DNA of 40,418 bases, taken from assembly GCA_028284935.1 (NCBI GenBank), contig JANQQQ010000002.1, positions 1 to 40,418 of the forward strand, read 5' to 3'. The DNA comes from Croceivirga sp. GTDB taxonomy: Bacteria; Bacteroidota; Bacteroidia; Flavobacteriales; Flavobacteriaceae. Every line of letters begins with the position of its first letter. Position 1 is the stretch's first letter. The notes under the pieces were generated by a model. The model was not told the origin of the DNA and searched no databases. It worked only from the letters and a program-made list of their open reading frames with translations. Of this stretch, positions 3,607 through 9,624 are shown in pieces. Made by a program: the position numbers and the translations under genes.

Positions 3607-4500
3607 TCAAGAGGTAAGTTCTGTAAACAAGCTTTCAAGGTTTTTGTTCTTCCTGCTTAACTGCAAGGTCTTTAATTGATGGTCATGGGCAAAATCAAAC
3701 ACCGTGGGCCGCATATCCTTTTCTGTAGTAAACGTAATTTCATAAGCAAATCCCCCAACATTTTTCACTTGGGAGACATAAGGTAATTTTTCCAATAAAA
3801 CCTCTTCCACGCGATAATCGAATTCCACTTCCAGAACTTGTTCTTTTGTTTCCCTAAGGGCGGCCAGTTTTTTGTCGGCTACAATCTCCCCTTTGTTGAT
3901 GATGATGACACGGTCACAAACGGCTTCCACTTCCTTCATGATATGAGTGGAGAGCAAGATGGTTTTTTCTTTTCCAATTTCTCTGATGAGTTTTCTAATT
4001 TCAATAAGCTGGTTGGGATCTAAACCCGTTGTTGGTTCGTCCAATATCAATACTTTGGGATCATGGAGTAATGCAGCTGCCAGACCTATACGCTGACGGT
4101 ACCCCTTTGAAAGTTGGCCAATTTTCTTATGGGCTTCTGGGGTTAACCCAGTTTGTATAATGACTTCGGAAATCCTTGATTTAGGCGTTTTGTAAGTTTC
4201 GGCGTTGAACTTTAGGTATTCCTTGACGTACATTTCTAAATACAAAGGATTGTGTTCAGGGAGGTAACCAATGCTCTTTTGTACCTGTTTGGTCGATTCC
4301 AAAACATCAAAGCCATTGACATTGGCCTTTCCTTCATCGGCCACATAATAGGTGGTCAAAATACGCATCATGGTCGATTTTCCAGCGCCATTTGGACCTA
4401 GAAAGCCTACAATTTCCCCTTTTTCTATGTGGAACGATACATTGTTCAGGGCTTTTTGCTTTCCGAAGGTTTTGGTGATGTTCTGAACGGAAATGGACAT
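3607..4500 (-). CDS. gldA: gliding motility ABC transporter ATP-binding subunit GldA
   Basis: A 297-residue ABC ATPase. Walker A is GPNGAGKST at residues 35-43, the signature LSKGYRQRIGLA lies near 134, Walker B is VLILDEPTTG near 156, and the switch histidine is in LLSTHIM. The phrases GYLPEHNPLYLEMYVKEYL and TGLTPEAHKKIGQLSKGYRQR match what I know of GldA from gliding flavobacteria. GldA pairs with the membrane proteins GldF and GldG; in Flavobacterium johnsoniae loss abolishes gliding. GldF and GldG are not next door here, but gldB and gldC are in the same window about 20 kb away. The gene stands alone, transcribed divergently from the Phe/Tyr operon. A general ABC export ATPase is the alternative. 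Confidence 0.87.
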   Translation of the reverse strand: MSISVQNITKTFGKQKALNNVSFHIEKGEIVGFLGPNGAGKSTMMRILTTYYVADEGKANVNGFDVLESTKQVQKSIGYLPEHNPLYLEMYVKEYLKFNAETYKTPKSRISEVIIQTGLTPEAHKKIGQLSKGYRQRIGLAAALLHDPKVLILDEPTTGLDPNQLIEIRKLIREIGKEKTILLSTHIMKEVEAVCDRVIIINKGEIVADKKLAALRETKEQVLEVEFDYRVEEVLLEKLPYVSQVKNVGGFAYEITFTTEKDMRPTVFDFAHDHQLKTLQLSRKNKNLESLFTELTS

Positions 4501-4701
4501 GAAATCAATTTGCCGTAAAAATAAACCTTTTCACCTCCCGTCCCGTAAAAGTAATGGTGACTTTGCTATGCTACAATGGGTTTTGCCTTTAACTCTTGGT
4601 AGTCTTTTGATGTGATATTCATAGTGTTCACCAAAATAAACCGCGCAAAAGTCAATGAAAAGACCTTTTTTCCGTAAAATCGAAAAAATTCTATCTTTCC
4701 C

Positions 4702-4731
4702 TTTGAATTTTGATGGGAAACCTTAATCTTA
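4702..4731 (+). promoter_or_regulatory. Predicted promoter of the Phe/Tyr operon
   Basis: TTTG at 4702-4705, an 18-base spacer, then TAATCTTA at 4724-4731, matching the Bacteroidota housekeeping pattern TTTG-N(17-23)-TAnnTTTG at the -33 box and in four of six fixed -7 positions. Transcription would start near 4738, placing the leader ATG about 12 bases into the mRNA. Found by eye; no transcript evidence. Confidence 0.5.
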
Positions 4732-4749
4732 GCCACTAATTAGAACAAA

Positions 4750-4821
4750 ATGAACAATACGTATTTCTGGAACGGTTTTTATTTCTATTTCTTTTTTAGT
4801 AGTGGAAAGGGACTGTTATAG
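4750..4821 (+). CDS. Phe/Tyr-rich attenuator leader peptide
   Basis: A 23-codon reading frame from ATG 4750 to TAG 4819-4821. Ten of its 23 residues are aromatic: Phe at 6, 10, 12, 14, 15 and 16, Tyr at 5, 11 and 13, Trp at 7. The densest run, residues 10-16, is FYFYFFF. It sits just upstream of an operon making Phe and Tyr and ahead of a terminator, which is the layout of ribosome-stalling leaders such as that of enterobacterial pheA. Its likely role is to measure charged tRNA-Phe and tRNA-Tyr; the peptide itself probably has no function. The GGA CTG codons near its end contribute the bases of the antiterminator. Confidence 0.8.
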   Translation: MNNTYFWNGFYFYFFFSSGKGLL

Positions 4822-4844
4822 CTATACACAACTATAAAAAACGT

Positions 4845-4876
4845 AAAGTCCCGAGTTAATTCGGGGCTTTTTTTTT
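4845..4876 (+). terminator. Intrinsic terminator arm of the attenuator
   Basis: AGTCCCGA (4847-4854) pairs with TCGGGGCT (4861-4868), eight pairs including one G-T wobble, around a six-base loop, followed by nine T residues (4868-4876). It ends two bases before the pheA start codon, so when formed it would stop transcription and also hide the translation start. Confidence 0.82.
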
Positions 4877-4878
4877 GA

Positions 4879-5709
4879 ATGAACCTTAAAGTGGCCATAC
4901 AGGGAATAAAAGGAAGCAATCACCATCAGGTGGCCAAAGAGTATTTTGGCAATTCCATCGATTTGGTAGAGTGCCTTTCTTTCGATGTATTGGTTGACCG
5001 TCTTATGGAGGGGAATGCCGATATGGGTGTCATGGCCATAGAAAATTCAATAGCGGGATCCATTATTCCCAATTACAATTTGGTGTATCACAATAACATT
5101 CACATCATTGGCGAACACTACTTGAGTATTCATCATAACCTAATGGTCCTCAAGGGGCAAACTTTGGATCAAATTGAAGAAGTACGGACCCACCCCATGG
5201 CATTACTGCAATGCAAGGAGTATTTACGACAATATCCAGGGATAAAACTGGTCGAAGATGTGGATACTGCAGAAACAGCTCGTCAAATTCAACAAAAGCA
5301 ATGGAAAAGAGTTGCTGCAATTGCGCCAAAAGTAGCAGCTGAACTCTATGATTTGGAAATCATCGCCTCAGAAATTCAAACGATAAAAAACAATGCAACA
5401 CGGTTTATTATTTTGAAGAGACAGAACAAGGCGCTTCCCGAAACTGAAATTAATAAGGCTTCCCTCCGGTTTATTACGGACCACAAACGGGGAAGTTTAG
5501 CCACAGTACTTAATGTAATGAGTGATTGCAATATGAATTTGACGAAGATTCAATCTTTGCCCGTCATCGAAACGCCATGGAAGTACGCTTTTTTTGTGGA
5601 TATGACCTTTGATAAATATGAGGAATTCGCCAAGGCAAAATCATTACTAGACATTATGTCGGAGGATTTTAGGGTGCTGGGCGAATATAAAAATGCATTA
5701 GTAGGATGA
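4879..5709 (+). CDS. pheA: Prephenate dehydratase
   Basis: Converts prephenate to phenylpyruvate, the committed step to phenylalanine, in the cytoplasm. The 276-residue protein has a periplasmic-binding-like catalytic domain (1-180) with ENS at 55-57 and the catalytic NATRF motif (TRF at 174-176), then an ACT domain from about 195. The ACT motifs that bind Phe in other dehydratases (GALV and ESRP) appear here as GSLA near 205 and QSLP near 225, so feedback binding may be altered. It carries no chorismate mutase domain; that activity is fused to the DAHP synthase three genes down. It is the first structural gene after the attenuator and overlaps the next gene by four bases (ATGA), implying translational coupling. 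Confidence 0.95.
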   Translation: MNLKVAIQGIKGSNHHQVAKEYFGNSIDLVECLSFDVLVDRLMEGNADMGVMAIENSIAGSIIPNYNLVYHNNIHIIGEHYLSIHHNLMVLKGQTLDQIEEVRTHPMALLQCKEYLRQYPGIKLVEDVDTAETARQIQQKQWKRVAAIAPKVAAELYDLEIIASEIQTIKNNATRFIILKRQNKALPETEINKASLRFITDHKRGSLATVLNVMSDCNMNLTKIQSLPVIETPWKYAFFVDMTFDKYEEFAKAKSLLDIMSEDFRVLGEYKNALVG

Positions 5710-6848
5710 TTGTCGCGGACCGATTACACAGTGTAAAAGAATACTACTTCTCAAGAAAATTAAGGGAAGTACGGGGATTGATGGCGGATGGCAAGCCAAT
5801 AATCAATATGGGTATTGGAAGTCCGGACCTACCCCCACCTCCTTCTGCATTGGATGCGTTAAATGCAGTATTGCACCGGGAAGGTGCCCACAAGTATCAA
5901 AGCTACCAAGGGCTTCCTGAATTGCGAGTGGCGATGTCGAATTTTTATCGCGAACGGTTTGGTGTTGAGGTCAACGCGGAAAAAGAATTGTTACCCCTGA
6001 TTGGTTCCAAAGAGGGTATTATGCATATCAGCATGGCTTTTTTAAATGTTGGTGATGGGGTGTTGGTTCCCAATCCCGGTTATCCTACATATTCCTCTGT
6101 AAGCAAGTTGTTGGGTGCCGAATTGATGGAGTACGATTTACTTGAAAAAAACGGGTGGTTACCTGATATTCCAAGCTTGGAAAAACGGGATCTTCAAAAA
6201 GTGAAACTCATGTGGATCAGTTACCCAAACATGCCCACAGGCGCAAAGATTACTCCAGAAAAAATGCAGGAACTGGTTGATTTTGCCAAAAGCCACAATA
6301 TCCTTTTGATCAACGATAACCCGTACAGTTTTGTGCTGAACGATGCGCCTACGAGCATCTTTCAAATTGAAGGGGCCAAAGAGTGCGCCCTGGAACTGAA
6401 TTCTTTGAGTAAGACGTTTAACCTTGCGGGATGGCGGGTAGGCATGGTCATTGGTAGTCCCGCCCACGTTTTGGCTGTTCTTAAGGTAAAGAGCAATATG
6501 GATTCCGGAATGTTCTATGGCATTCAAAAGGGAGCTGTTGCCGCTTTGGAAAGCGGACAGGAATGGTTTGATGAACTGGATGGAACCTACTCCAAGAGAA
6601 GGGATTTGATGTTCCAATTGGTTGAAAAGTTGAATTGTTCCTATGACTCCAATGCAGCCGGAATGTTTATTTGGGCCAAACTTCCCAAAGGGGCTAAACC
6701 TGCCGAAGAATTTATTGACGAAGTGCTCTATGAAAAGAATGTATTCATTGCACCGGGAACTATTTTTGGCAGTAATGGAGAGGGCTATGTTCGATTTTCC
6801 CTATGTGTGTCATCAGCAAAAATCAAGGAAGCTATCAGTAGATTTTAG
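5706..6848 (+). CDS. Class I/II PLP aminotransferase, probably aromatic
   Basis: A fold-type I aminotransferase of 380 residues. The PLP lysine is K236 in SLSKTFNLAGWRVG; the cofactor region shows NPGYPTY near 123, YPNMPTG near 173 (a variant of NPNNPTG) and a DNPYS segment near 204. Position between pheA and tyrA, overlapping the former by four bases and abutting the latter, suggests it transaminates phenylpyruvate and 4-hydroxyphenylpyruvate to Phe and Tyr. By sequence alone it could also be an aspartate, alanine or LL-diaminopimelate-type aminotransferase, so the substrate rests on context. Confidence 0.88.
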   Translation: MIVADRLHSVKEYYFSRKLREVRGLMADGKPIINMGIGSPDLPPPPSALDALNAVLHREGAHKYQSYQGLPELRVAMSNFYRERFGVEVNAEKELLPLIGSKEGIMHISMAFLNVGDGVLVPNPGYPTYSSVSKLLGAELMEYDLLEKNGWLPDIPSLEKRDLQKVKLMWISYPNMPTGAKITPEKMQELVDFAKSHNILLINDNPYSFVLNDAPTSIFQIEGAKECALELNSLSKTFNLAGWRVGMVIGSPAHVLAVLKVKSNMDSGMFYGIQKGAVAALESGQEWFDELDGTYSKRRDLMFQLVEKLNCSYDSNAAGMFIWAKLPKGAKPAEEFIDEVLYEKNVFIAPGTIFGSNGEGYVRFSLCVSSAKIKEAISRF

Positions 6849-7718
6849 ATGGAAAGAGTAGCAATTGTAGGTATTGGTTTGATTGGCGGTTCTTTTGCAA
6901 AAGGGATAAAACGGTTGTATCCTACATCCAATATTGCTGGATTTGATACCAATGAATCCCATCTTGAAGAGGCCATGGCCTTGGGGTTGATTGATAAAAA
7001 AGGTGATGACAACACAATTTCGGAATCAGAAATGGTTCTTGTGACCATTCCTGTGGATGTTTTGGTAAAGGAACTTCCAGAAATCTTGAATAAGATCAAT
7101 GAGGATTGTGTGGTCATCGATGCCGGTTCTACCAAAGCATTGCTTTGTCAAACCGTTGAAGATCACCCCAGGCGAAGGAATTATTTGTCTTGCCATCCTA
7201 TTGCCGGAACAGAGTTTTCTGGCCCCTCAGCTGCTTTTGATGGGTTGTATGAGGGAAAGACGAATATTATCTGTGAAGTTGAAAAAACGGCATTCAAGCT
7301 TCAGGAAAAAGCCCTGAACCTTTTTCAGCAATTGGGTATGCGAATTCGGTATATGAATCCCGAAGCACACGATAAACACATCGCCTATGTTTCCCATTTG
7401 TCGCACATCAGCTCATTTATGTTGGGGAAAACAGTGATTGAGGAAGAGCAGAACGAACGGGATATTTTTGATATGGCAGGTAGCGGTTTTGAAAGCACGG
7501 TACGCTTGGCGAAAAGCTCTCCCGATATGTGGACCCCCATATTTGAGCAGAACAAGGCAAATGTGGTAAGGAGTTTACAAGAATACATTAAAAACCTGGA
7601 AGCCTTTAAGCAGATGATGGAAGAAGATGATTTCGTAGGCATTTATGATCAAATGAACAACACAAATAGAATACAACAAATTTTAAAAGGAATACCCCTT
7701 ACTAAAACCCCTAAATGA
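6849..7718 (+). CDS. tyrA: Prephenate dehydrogenase
   Basis: Oxidative decarboxylation of prephenate to 4-hydroxyphenylpyruvate, the tyrosine branch. The Rossmann loop GIGLIGGSF is at residues 8-16, the family HPIAGTE motif near 118, and the SHLSHISS segment carrying conserved histidines near 180. The length of 289 residues is normal for a dehydrogenase without an ACT domain, so Tyr control is more likely to come through the operon leader. It begins directly after the stop codon of the aminotransferase and is one base from the next gene. Confidence 0.94.
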   Translation: MERVAIVGIGLIGGSFAKGIKRLYPTSNIAGFDTNESHLEEAMALGLIDKKGDDNTISESEMVLVTIPVDVLVKELPEILNKINEDCVVIDAGSTKALLCQTVEDHPRRRNYLSCHPIAGTEFSGPSAAFDGLYEGKTNIICEVEKTAFKLQEKALNLFQQLGMRIRYMNPEAHDKHIAYVSHLSHISSFMLGKTVIEEEQNERDIFDMAGSGFESTVRLAKSSPDMWTPIFEQNKANVVRSLQEYIKNLEAFKQMMEEDDFVGIYDQMNNTNRIQQILKGIPLTKTPK

Positions 7719-7719
7719 A

Positions 7720-8802
7720 ATGGAAAACTCTAAAGAGCTAAGAAGTTGGTTGGATAATTTGGAACTACCGCACCCTTTGGTAATTGCAGGACCGTGCAGC
7801 GCGGAGACCGAAGAACAAGTACTGAACACTGCCCATGAACTTAAAGATTCGGATGTAAGTTATTATCGTGCAGGAATTTGGAAACCCCGAACGCGTCCTG
7901 GTAATTTTGAGGGGGTAGGTGCCATCGGTCTTAAGTGGTTGCAAAAAGTGAAAGAAGAGACCGGACTTCAAACAGCCACTGAAGTGGCCAACCGAACCCA
8001 CGTGGATTTGGCCTTGGAGCACGGGGTGGACTTGTTGTGGATTGGCGCCCGTTCCACGGTGAGTCCTTTTATTGTTCAGGAGATTGCGGATGCCTTGGAG
8101 GGTACGGATAAGGTGGTATTGATAAAAAACCCCGTGAATCCCGATCTTTCACTTTGGTTAGGAGCCGTGGAACGTTTGCATTCCGCCAATATTAAAAAAT
8201 TGGGGGTGATCCACCGCGGGTTTTCAACATACCAAAAAACCAAATACAGGAACATCCCGGAATGGCAAATAGCGATTGAACTGCAAAGTCGTTTCCCAGA
8301 TTTACCACTGATCAACGACCCCAGTCATATAACGGGGAAAAGGGATATGGTCTTCGATGTATCACAAACCGCTTTGGATTTAAACTTTGATGGGTTAATG
8401 ATTGAGACGCATATTGACCCAGATAATGCCTGGAGCGATGCGGCACAACAAGTAACTCCGTCAGTGCTCAAACAGATGTTTAAAGATTTAAAGATGAGAA
8501 AGGAAACCGATGAAGAGGCGGAATACAATGCAAACTTGGCCAACCTTAGGGCCCAAATAGATGTCATTGACAACAAACTGATAGAAATATTAGGAGACCG
8601 CATGAAGGTTTCGGATGGCATCGGTGAATTGAAAAAACAAAGAAACGTTGCCGTTTTGCAGACCAATCGTTGGAATTCAATTTTAGGGAAGATGATCTTG
8701 GAAGGGGAACAACATGGTTTGAGTGAGGAGTTTGTACTGCGCATGTTCAAAGCCATCCATCAGGAATCCATCAACCATCAAGAGAAAATTATCAATGCCT
8801 AA
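7720..8802 (+). CDS. Bifunctional DAHP synthase / chorismate mutase
   Basis: The N-terminal domain (about 1-265) is a type I-beta 3-deoxy-7-phosphoheptulonate synthase: AGPCSAET near 20, WKPRTRPGNFEG near 52, IGARSTVSPF near 107, and INDPSHITG near 197. It condenses phosphoenolpyruvate and erythrose 4-phosphate, opening the shikimate pathway. The C-terminal 90 residues are an AroQ chorismate mutase (LRAQIDVIDNKLIEILGDRM near 270-290, with the later lysine and arginine of the active site). Thus one protein covers the first step and the chorismate branch step. The fusion in this order is usual in Bacteroidota. It closes the four-gene operon; no clear terminator follows. Confidence 0.94.
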   Translation: MENSKELRSWLDNLELPHPLVIAGPCSAETEEQVLNTAHELKDSDVSYYRAGIWKPRTRPGNFEGVGAIGLKWLQKVKEETGLQTATEVANRTHVDLALEHGVDLLWIGARSTVSPFIVQEIADALEGTDKVVLIKNPVNPDLSLWLGAVERLHSANIKKLGVIHRGFSTYQKTKYRNIPEWQIAIELQSRFPDLPLINDPSHITGKRDMVFDVSQTALDLNFDGLMIETHIDPDNAWSDAAQQVTPSVLKQMFKDLKMRKETDEEAEYNANLANLRAQIDVIDNKLIEILGDRMKVSDGIGELKKQRNVAVLQTNRWNSILGKMILEGEQHGLSEEFVLRMFKAIHQESINHQEKIINA

Positions 8803-8946: not shown

Positions 8947-9624
8947 ATGATGAGGAAAATAATTACACTCCTACTCGTGTCCATTTCTTTACAAACATTC
9001 GCTCAGCGCATCATTGATAGAGAGGTTGGCGACTTTCATGCGGTTAAGGTGTTCGACTTGATTGAGGTCAACTTAATTCAATCTGACGAAAATAAAATTC
9101 TAATCAAGGGAAGGAATGTGGATGATATAAAATGGGTGAATAAGGATGGGGTTTTAAAACTACGAATGCAGCTGGATAAGAAGTTCACTGGTGAGGATAC
9201 CCTTATCGAGGTGTGCTACCAAAACTTGGATTTGATAGATGCCAACGAAGGGTCCCAAATCACCTGCAATGAAATGGTAAAAAAGAATAAAATTGAACTT
9301 AGAGCCCAAGAAGGGGCTCTGATTAAAATAGGTATGGACGTTGCGGTAGCAGAGATTCGTGCAGTAACCGGTGGTATCGTTGCTGCTTCCGGCTTGGCTG
9401 AAAATCAATCCGTGGTCATCAACACCGGTGGTATTTTTGAAGGTAGCGATTTAAGAACAGCAAGCTCTGATGTAAAGATATCTGCTGGTGGAGAGGCTGA
9501 AGTCTTTGCTTCGGAACGTATCAATATTGATGTGAAGGCCGGGGGTGATGTTGTGGTGTATGGAAAACCAAAGTACGTCAACAAAAAGACTTTTGTAGGA
9601 GGTCGGATTAGAATCGTGGATTAA
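8947..9624 (+). CDS. Exported head-GIN-domain (DUF2807) protein
   Basis: A 225-residue protein with a signal peptide ending near residue 19 (LQTFAQ) and then a repetitive beta-strand pattern typical of the head GIN domain (DUF2807): FHAVKVFDLIEVNLIQSD near the start, and glycine/alanine-rich turns with alternating hydrophobic residues through the rest. Such proteins are predicted beta-helices in the periplasm or on the surface; their biochemical role is not known. It stands alone between the aromatic operon and a shared terminator. Confidence 0.8.
   Translation: MMRKIITLLLVSISLQTFAQRIIDREVGDFHAVKVFDLIEVNLIQSDENKILIKGRNVDDIKWVNKDGVLKLRMQLDKKFTGEDTLIEVCYQNLDLIDANEGSQITCNEMVKKNKIELRAQEGALIKIGMDVAVAEIRAVTGGIVAASGLAENQSVVINTGGIFEGSDLRTASSDVKISAGGEAEVFASERINIDVKAGGDVVVYGKPKYVNKKTFVGGRIRIVD

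Follow-up and report, generated by a model that had tools for sequence, protein, structure and literature searches.

The window (the whole 40,418-nucleotide stretch of DNA that was analysed) carries an aromatic amino-acid operon on its forward strand. The following genes were assigned in and around this operon.

3607-4500, reverse strand: GldA, gliding-motility ABC transporter ATP-binding protein (461.3 bits, cut-off 402.6)
4879-5709, forward strand: pheA, prephenate dehydratase (Pfam PDT, E 2.8e-58)
5706-6848, forward strand: class I/II aminotransferase (Pfam Aminotran_1_2)
6849-7718, forward strand: tyrA, prephenate dehydrogenase (NCBIfam NF006307, 380.5 bits, cut-off 295)
7720-8802, forward strand: DAHP synthase-chorismate mutase fusion (Pfam DAHP_synth_1 and CM_2)
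8947-9624, forward strand: DUF2807 (head GIN domain) protein, downstream of the operon (domain match)

The gldA gene lies upstream on the opposite strand and is divergent from the operon. Across the loci L002-L040 and L257-L336, an aminotransferase gene was found anywhere in the locus in 119 of 119 cases and tyrA in 114 of 119. The space between gldA and pheA holds a short leader frame and a set of RNA arms, all on the forward strand.

4725-4732, forward strand: likely -7 promoter box AATCTTAG, one mismatch from TAnnTT[TA]G, identified by eye 25 nt before the leader ATG
4750-4821, forward strand: leader peptide ORF of 23 codons with six Phe, three Tyr and one Trp codon, conserved in relatives with a coding pattern
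4771-4779, forward strand: segment 1 (AACGGTTTT), forming the 5' hairpin (1:2) with segment 2 (minimum-energy fold, RNAalifold, synonymous-codon control and pair counts)
4809-4819, forward strand: segment 2 (GGGACTGTTAT), the antiterminator 5' arm within the leader ORF (pairing tests)
4843-4854, forward strand: segment 3, comprising the antiterminator 3' arm (4843-4852) and the terminator 5' arm (4845-4854)
4861-4876, forward strand: segment 4, the terminator 3' arm and the T-run

The leader ORF translates as MNNTYFWNGFYFYFFFSSGKGLL, followed by the stop codon. Its Phe codons start at 4765, 4777, 4783, 4789, 4792 and 4795, its Tyr codons at 4762, 4780 and 4786 and its Trp codon at 4768. The final Phe codon occupies 4795-4797 and the stop codon 4819-4821. 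The terminator is a 10-pair stem (4845-4854 with 4861-4870; -13.9 kcal/mol, calculated with our own script) with a run of nine T at 4868-4876, and two bases separate the end of this T-run from the pheA ATG at 4879. In the antiterminator, GGGACT (4809-4814) pairs with AGTCCC (4847-4852), and the computed duplex also takes in 4816-4819 with 4843-4846. Antiterminator and terminator use the same bases of segment 3 and are mutually exclusive by sequence. An earlier note on this DNA had described the 23-codon frame, the terminator and the antiterminator, and upon recomputation all of its coordinates for them were correct.

Folding of the 151-nt leader region yielded -34.4 kcal/mol (z -3.0), and 2 of 200 shuffled sequences folded equally well. 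A consensus scan for terminators between 4500 and 9000 did not reveal an excess (4 found, the leader terminator included, versus 5.0 expected). Therefore, the weight rests on the combination of leader and terminator. The window was divided into half-overlapping tiles of 600 bases, both strands counted, and the combined test was positive in one of 266 tiles, the forward tile starting at 4501. Among the other tiles of 39 related loci, one of 312 was positive.

These 39 loci came from the own genome, 10 further members of its genus and 28 additional family members, with pheA identities of 73-100%. The leader was located within 300 nt of pheA in 38 of them; in the remaining one (L033) it lies further upstream. 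Leader and terminator were likewise detected in 116 of 118 additional family loci. For a strict test, we demanded an ATG frame of 8-45 codons, at least six aromatic codons in 12 and a terminator within about 110 nt. The family set for this test combined three groups: a first set of 148 loci (30 plus 118) out of the 178 genomes of the family in which pheA had been found, nine more loci of the genus and five family loci contributed by a search of the class (including G129 and G183). This gave 162 loci; two near contig ends (G058, G045) were left out. The strict test was passed by 160 of the 162 Flavobacteriaceae pheA upstream regions. As controls, 1620 dinucleotide shuffles and the 162 reverse complements were run, of which five and one passed, respectively. 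Raising the demand to at least eight aromatic codons left 153 of 162 real regions versus none of 1620 shuffles. The class search found a PheA match in 89 of 296 genomes, 78 of them outside Flavobacteriaceae, and 55 of these were examined. Here, 37 of 55 passed the strict test (25 at eight or more aromatic codons) with no pass among 550 shuffles and 55 reverse complements; thus the range of the element extends beyond Flavobacteriaceae to the pheA regions of other Bacteroidia families. In a named set of relatives (the best 80 of 287, partly overlapping the first set), an ATG leader frame was present in 79, and the same frame with a GTG start was recognized by eye in L304.

The leader was missing in two of the 162 family members. 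In one of these (L132) the region upstream of pheA is full of repeated inverted-repeat units and, by eye, seems to retain a remnant GTCCCC arm. In the other (L157) the stretch directly upstream of pheA looks protein-coding by eye.

The codons of the leader were compared in 36 leaders of equal length. Over codons 5-16, 13 differences from the consensus fell on the first codon position, 47 on the second and 77 on the third. Of these 77, 56 were C/T, and codons that are aromatic in the consensus stayed aromatic in 355 of 360 cases. By this coding-type pattern of codon positions, the leader frame is translated. Phe codons arise easily in T-rich DNA, and one might take the frame as a chance product of AT-rich sequence and the hairpin with its T-run as the mere end of an upstream or antisense transcript. 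However, the combination appeared in only the few family shuffles and in none of the class shuffles given above, the codon positions vary as they do in coding DNA and the upstream gldA sits on the other strand. We consider this reading extremely unlikely.

Both Phe and Tyr codons occur in all 197 passing leaders (160 family, 37 class), and the strict test requires aromatic codons of any kind, not Phe plus Tyr. Trp codons occur as well in 102 of the 160 family leaders and in 9 of the 37 from the class. Therefore, on this codon evidence, the conserved signal comes from Phe and Tyr, with Trp being optional; in some members, the Trp codon might conceivably add Trp sensing. The earlier note had matched the codons to an operon making both Phe and Tyr, and pheA and tyrA are both present in the operon.

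Next to the frame, the arms were compared. In the close set (38 distinct sequences of 39), the first five GGGACT/AGTCCC pairs were kept in 38 of 38 and the sixth in 34 of 38. A G-C to A-U paired change was found in L027 (GAGACT/AGTCTC), several G-U intermediates occur in the close set and L309 has GGAGC with GTTCC (pairing by eye). By their sequences, L027 and L309 are separate paired changes among close relatives. Within the family, the arm GTCCC is accompanied by GGGAC or GGGGC in 46 of 47 members and the arm GTCTC by GAGAC, GAGGC or GAGAT in 76 of 82. Pairing of segment 2 with its own segment 3 reached a family mean of -12.18 kcal/mol versus -9.47 kcal/mol for permuted partners, with none of 2000 permutations as good, although kinship inflates this comparison. 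In order to control for the peptide, natural leaders were compared with synonymous versions drawn from the leaders' own codon pool. Natural codons favored the 2:3 pairing with a mean z of -2.05 in the close set (39), -1.36 in the rest of the family (121) and -1.96 in the class (37). For the 1:2 pairing the mean z was -2.42, -0.91 and -0.80 in the same three sets. The synonymous-codon effect was weaker beyond the close set. The earlier note had stated that missing conservation of the leader frame or arms in relatives would refute it. The outcome was favorable: the leader frame, the terminator and the antiterminator all recur in relatives, and the arms change in a paired manner across the family members that pass.

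The same comparisons bear on a different role of the peptide. The nascent chain, perhaps together with free Phe or Tyr, might itself stall the ribosome in a TnaC-like manner, instead of empty A-site codons doing so. The peptide is indeed strongly conserved in close relatives (YFWNGFYFYFFF...GTGLF). Beyond the close set, however, F, Y and W interchange and their number and spacing drift (by eye). The C-terminal residues follow the RNA arm, GTGLF going with GTCCC and NETLYV with GTCTC, and the conserved Asn-Gly and Gly-Leu codons are explained by arms 1 and 2. An arrest peptide is thus improbable, and we favor stalling on the codons.

Hairpin 1:2 consists of 4771-4779 paired with 4809-4817 plus flanking pairs, i.e. 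the leader arm AACGGUUUU with GGGACUGUU, and is present in the minimum-energy fold as well as in the RNAalifold consensus. A MAFFT alignment (A1) shifted the terminator by 1-2 columns, and pairs were therefore counted with an anchoring script. Each of six counted pairs of hairpin 1:2 was kept in 30 to 38 of 38 leaders and a C-G to U-A change was seen; since the script applies one register to all leaders, including a few whose length differs, some 1:2 pairs are undercounted. The hairpin would perhaps act as a protector or pause hairpin. A pairing of 4773-4782 with 4834-4843, which the earlier note had suggested as a third stem, can form (-5.4 kcal/mol) but does not surpass shuffled linkers (mean z -0.02 over 39 loci, -0.44 in the window). 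This suggestion was dropped, and hairpin 1:2 was supported instead. A linker self-hairpin had a mean z of -0.5. The linker motif ATAT...ATAT was found in 16 of 39 close loci (2.5 expected), 28 of 160 family leaders (20.9 expected) and 4 of 37 class leaders (1.5 expected).

We also looked for a promoter. In 143 of 160 family leaders, TAnnTT[TA]G was found no more than 70 nt ahead of the leader ATG (median distance 25 nt), versus 18.8 expected from shuffles. PMC9723704 gives TAnnTTTG as the flavobacterial promoter consensus. The conserved -7-like box fits this consensus and would place the leader first in the transcript.

Based on these observations, the locus very probably controls the aromatic amino-acid operon by ribosome-mediated transcription attenuation. 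The conserved frame and arms, the covariation and the synonymous-codon controls make attenuation that senses Phe and Tyr well supported at the level of sequence. In the proposed mechanism, transcription would begin just upstream, with a ribosome following RNA polymerase and translating the leader peptide. A shortage of charged tRNA-Phe or tRNA-Tyr would stall this ribosome on the Phe/Tyr run, where it would cover segment 1. Segment 2 would then stay free to pair with segment 3, blocking the terminator, and pheA, the aminotransferase gene, tyrA and the DAHP synthase gene would be transcribed. With both Phe and Tyr plentiful, the ribosome would reach the stop codon and cover segment 2, segments 3 and 4 would pair and transcription would end at the T-run before pheA.

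This course of events was examined with a geometry model in which the RNA downstream of the ribosome is folded before arm 4 emerges. For every ribosome position between Tyr 4762 and Phe 4795, both included, the model predicted that 7.0 bases of segment 3 of the window pair within the antiterminator; a ribosome at the stop codon lowered this to 0.2. The model thus agrees with the earlier claim that a stall on Phe/Tyr frees the antiterminator arm and that a ribosome at the stop masks it. The same pattern was predicted for 155 of 160 leaders in the family and for 34 of 37 in the class. As a control, a foreign segment 3 was swapped in, and 799 of 800 family and 182 of 185 class combinations still passed; therefore the model tests geometry (spacing) only. 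In the window model lacking a ribosome the antiterminator was still favored (6.8 bases versus 7.0 with a stalled ribosome), so that this model does not support classical superattenuation, even though hairpin 1:2 is conserved.

The T-run of the window ends 2 nt before the ATG, and nine of 11 genus members have a gap of 2-3 nt. This position would suit a mainly translational control, in which the hairpin keeps the start codon of pheA covered until translation of the leader exposes it. In 160 family leaders, however, the gap between the T-run and the PheA match had a median of 20 nt and a 95th percentile of 87 nt, and reached 332 nt in L033. The T-run is conserved and nearness to the start codon is not, which makes translational control very unlikely compared with termination at the T-run.

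T-box elements or metabolite riboswitches control aromatic genes in other phyla and could sense the amino acids here as well. In the window, no Rfam family scored at its cut-off and neither kind of element was among 25 permissive matches; the T-box family in particular gave no match at either level. Such an element would leave the leader ORF unexplained, and the consensus fold contains hairpin 1:2 and the terminator only. We give this possibility next to no weight. The Rfam comparison proposed earlier did return Phe_leader (RF01859) as the nearest attenuator family, but its 27.1 bits (E 0.012) lie below the cut-off of 55, and an unrelated sRNA family reached 27.3 bits in the same list. Therefore, the element is not filed as a Phe_leader member. 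A covariance model (R1) was built from 37 leaders and is too close to one lineage, and its matches at E <= 0.01 in at least 35 of 395 genomes of the order mark only a minimum. Applied to the own genome, the model recovered the window site with an E value of 3.2e-17; eight other matches (E 1.01 to 8.29) resemble, by eye, ordinary terminators and other sequence.

Outside Flavobacteriaceae, 18 of the 55 class members failed the strict test, among them three (L213, L222, L227) that were scored as failures despite leader-like frames by eye. In family f27 the leader was missing in all five members examined (L209, L210, L216, L218, L221), of eight with a PheA match, which is perhaps a clade-wide loss or absence. 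The f27 genomes lacking the leader still have pheA and tyrA close together. Proximity of tyrA as a predictor of the leader was tried by hand count and does not discriminate: tyrA lies within about 4 kb of pheA in 19 of 37 class genomes with the leader versus 13 of 18 without it, and many genomes have no TyrA match at all in the search used for this count. Beyond the class, a leader with a terminator-like hairpin was seen by eye in 3 of 20 loci (L339, L340, L341). Their PheA proteins are the most Bacteroidia-like of the 20, with 42-47% identity versus 38% or less in the other 17. The leader thus accompanies a Bacteroidia-type pheA outside the class in 3 of 3 cases versus 0 of 17 others, a further such gene in G960 not being in this count. 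Judged by sequence, either transfer of gene and attenuator together or old shared descent would account for these three loci. Whether an attenuator for Phe and Tyr (in some members also Trp) is ancestral to much of Bacteroidia, kept with pheA while its arms were rewritten pairwise, we regard as evenly balanced.

Gammaproteobacterial pheL consists of a short Phe-rich leader ORF, a protector, an antiterminator and a terminator before pheA, and the E. coli leader peptide contains Phe codons and no Tyr. The element described here resembles this architecture in its Phe-rich leader ORF, antiterminator and terminator before pheA. In contrast to E. coli pheL, Phe and Tyr codons are mixed in the 197 leaders, and the operon also makes Tyr. 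Candidates in Bacteroidetes/Chlorobi are reportedly mentioned by Vitreschak in 2004. Leader-peptide attenuation has mainly been studied in Proteobacteria (see also PMC2965389). A 2021 transcriptome study of Flavobacterium psychrophilum (PMC9723704) reports structured 5' elements ahead of pheA and hisG, which also occur in other Flavobacteriaceae genera and have no Rfam matches, and sees strong indications of attenuation by leader peptides in front of operons for amino acids. That element shares gene, family and lack of an Rfam match with ours, and the two are likely the same. In the relevant passages of PMC9723704, its sequence, arms and codons are not given, nor is any range outside the family. 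The earlier view that the element was undescribed in Flavobacteriaceae holds for its anatomy as far as these passages go, but they already mention an element upstream of pheA. For Bacteroides thetaiotaomicron, passages of PMC7366714 describe short leader-peptide-like frames in long 5' UTRs and leave pheA unnamed. The pheA motif of Weinberg 2010 (PMC2864571) shares the gene name and is listed there for Actinobacteria, marked '?'. PMC9723704 apart, our literature search, with most subscription papers lying outside it, turned up no account of a Phe/Tyr leader preceding pheA in Bacteroidia. Judging from the sequences, the pheA element is real and conserved and almost certainly functions as a ribosome-mediated attenuator; it has been partly described before.

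Two further leader candidates were found in the same genome.

L338:1329-1382 (own genome C19): Trp leader MIRTNKTWWWINLRQTS, followed by a stop codon, before trpE
L337 (own genome C35), reverse strand, ATG at 1221 of the reversed locus: His leader MRNLHTHHHTASIAQAR, followed by a stop codon, before hisG

Directly ahead of trpE, the Trp leader is followed by a hairpin (GGCTTGTC...GACAAGCC) with a T-rich tail. The best antiterminator candidate for this leader is weak, at -7.2 kcal/mol. The Trp leader is probably a second attenuator of the same kind. The His leader has a terminator before hisG and a candidate antiterminator of -14.3 kcal/mol near the leader end. One copy of each was examined, and both would follow the same principle as the pheA leader with different codons and arms.

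In summary, one readily recognized element lies before pheA in nearly all examined Flavobacteriaceae and in many other Bacteroidia, and these leaders would allow the missing Rfam family to be defined. A single leader would read two amino acids whose branches share the operon. For organisms in which Shine-Dalgarno initiation is little used, the pheA leader would provide a clear test of transcription-translation coupling.
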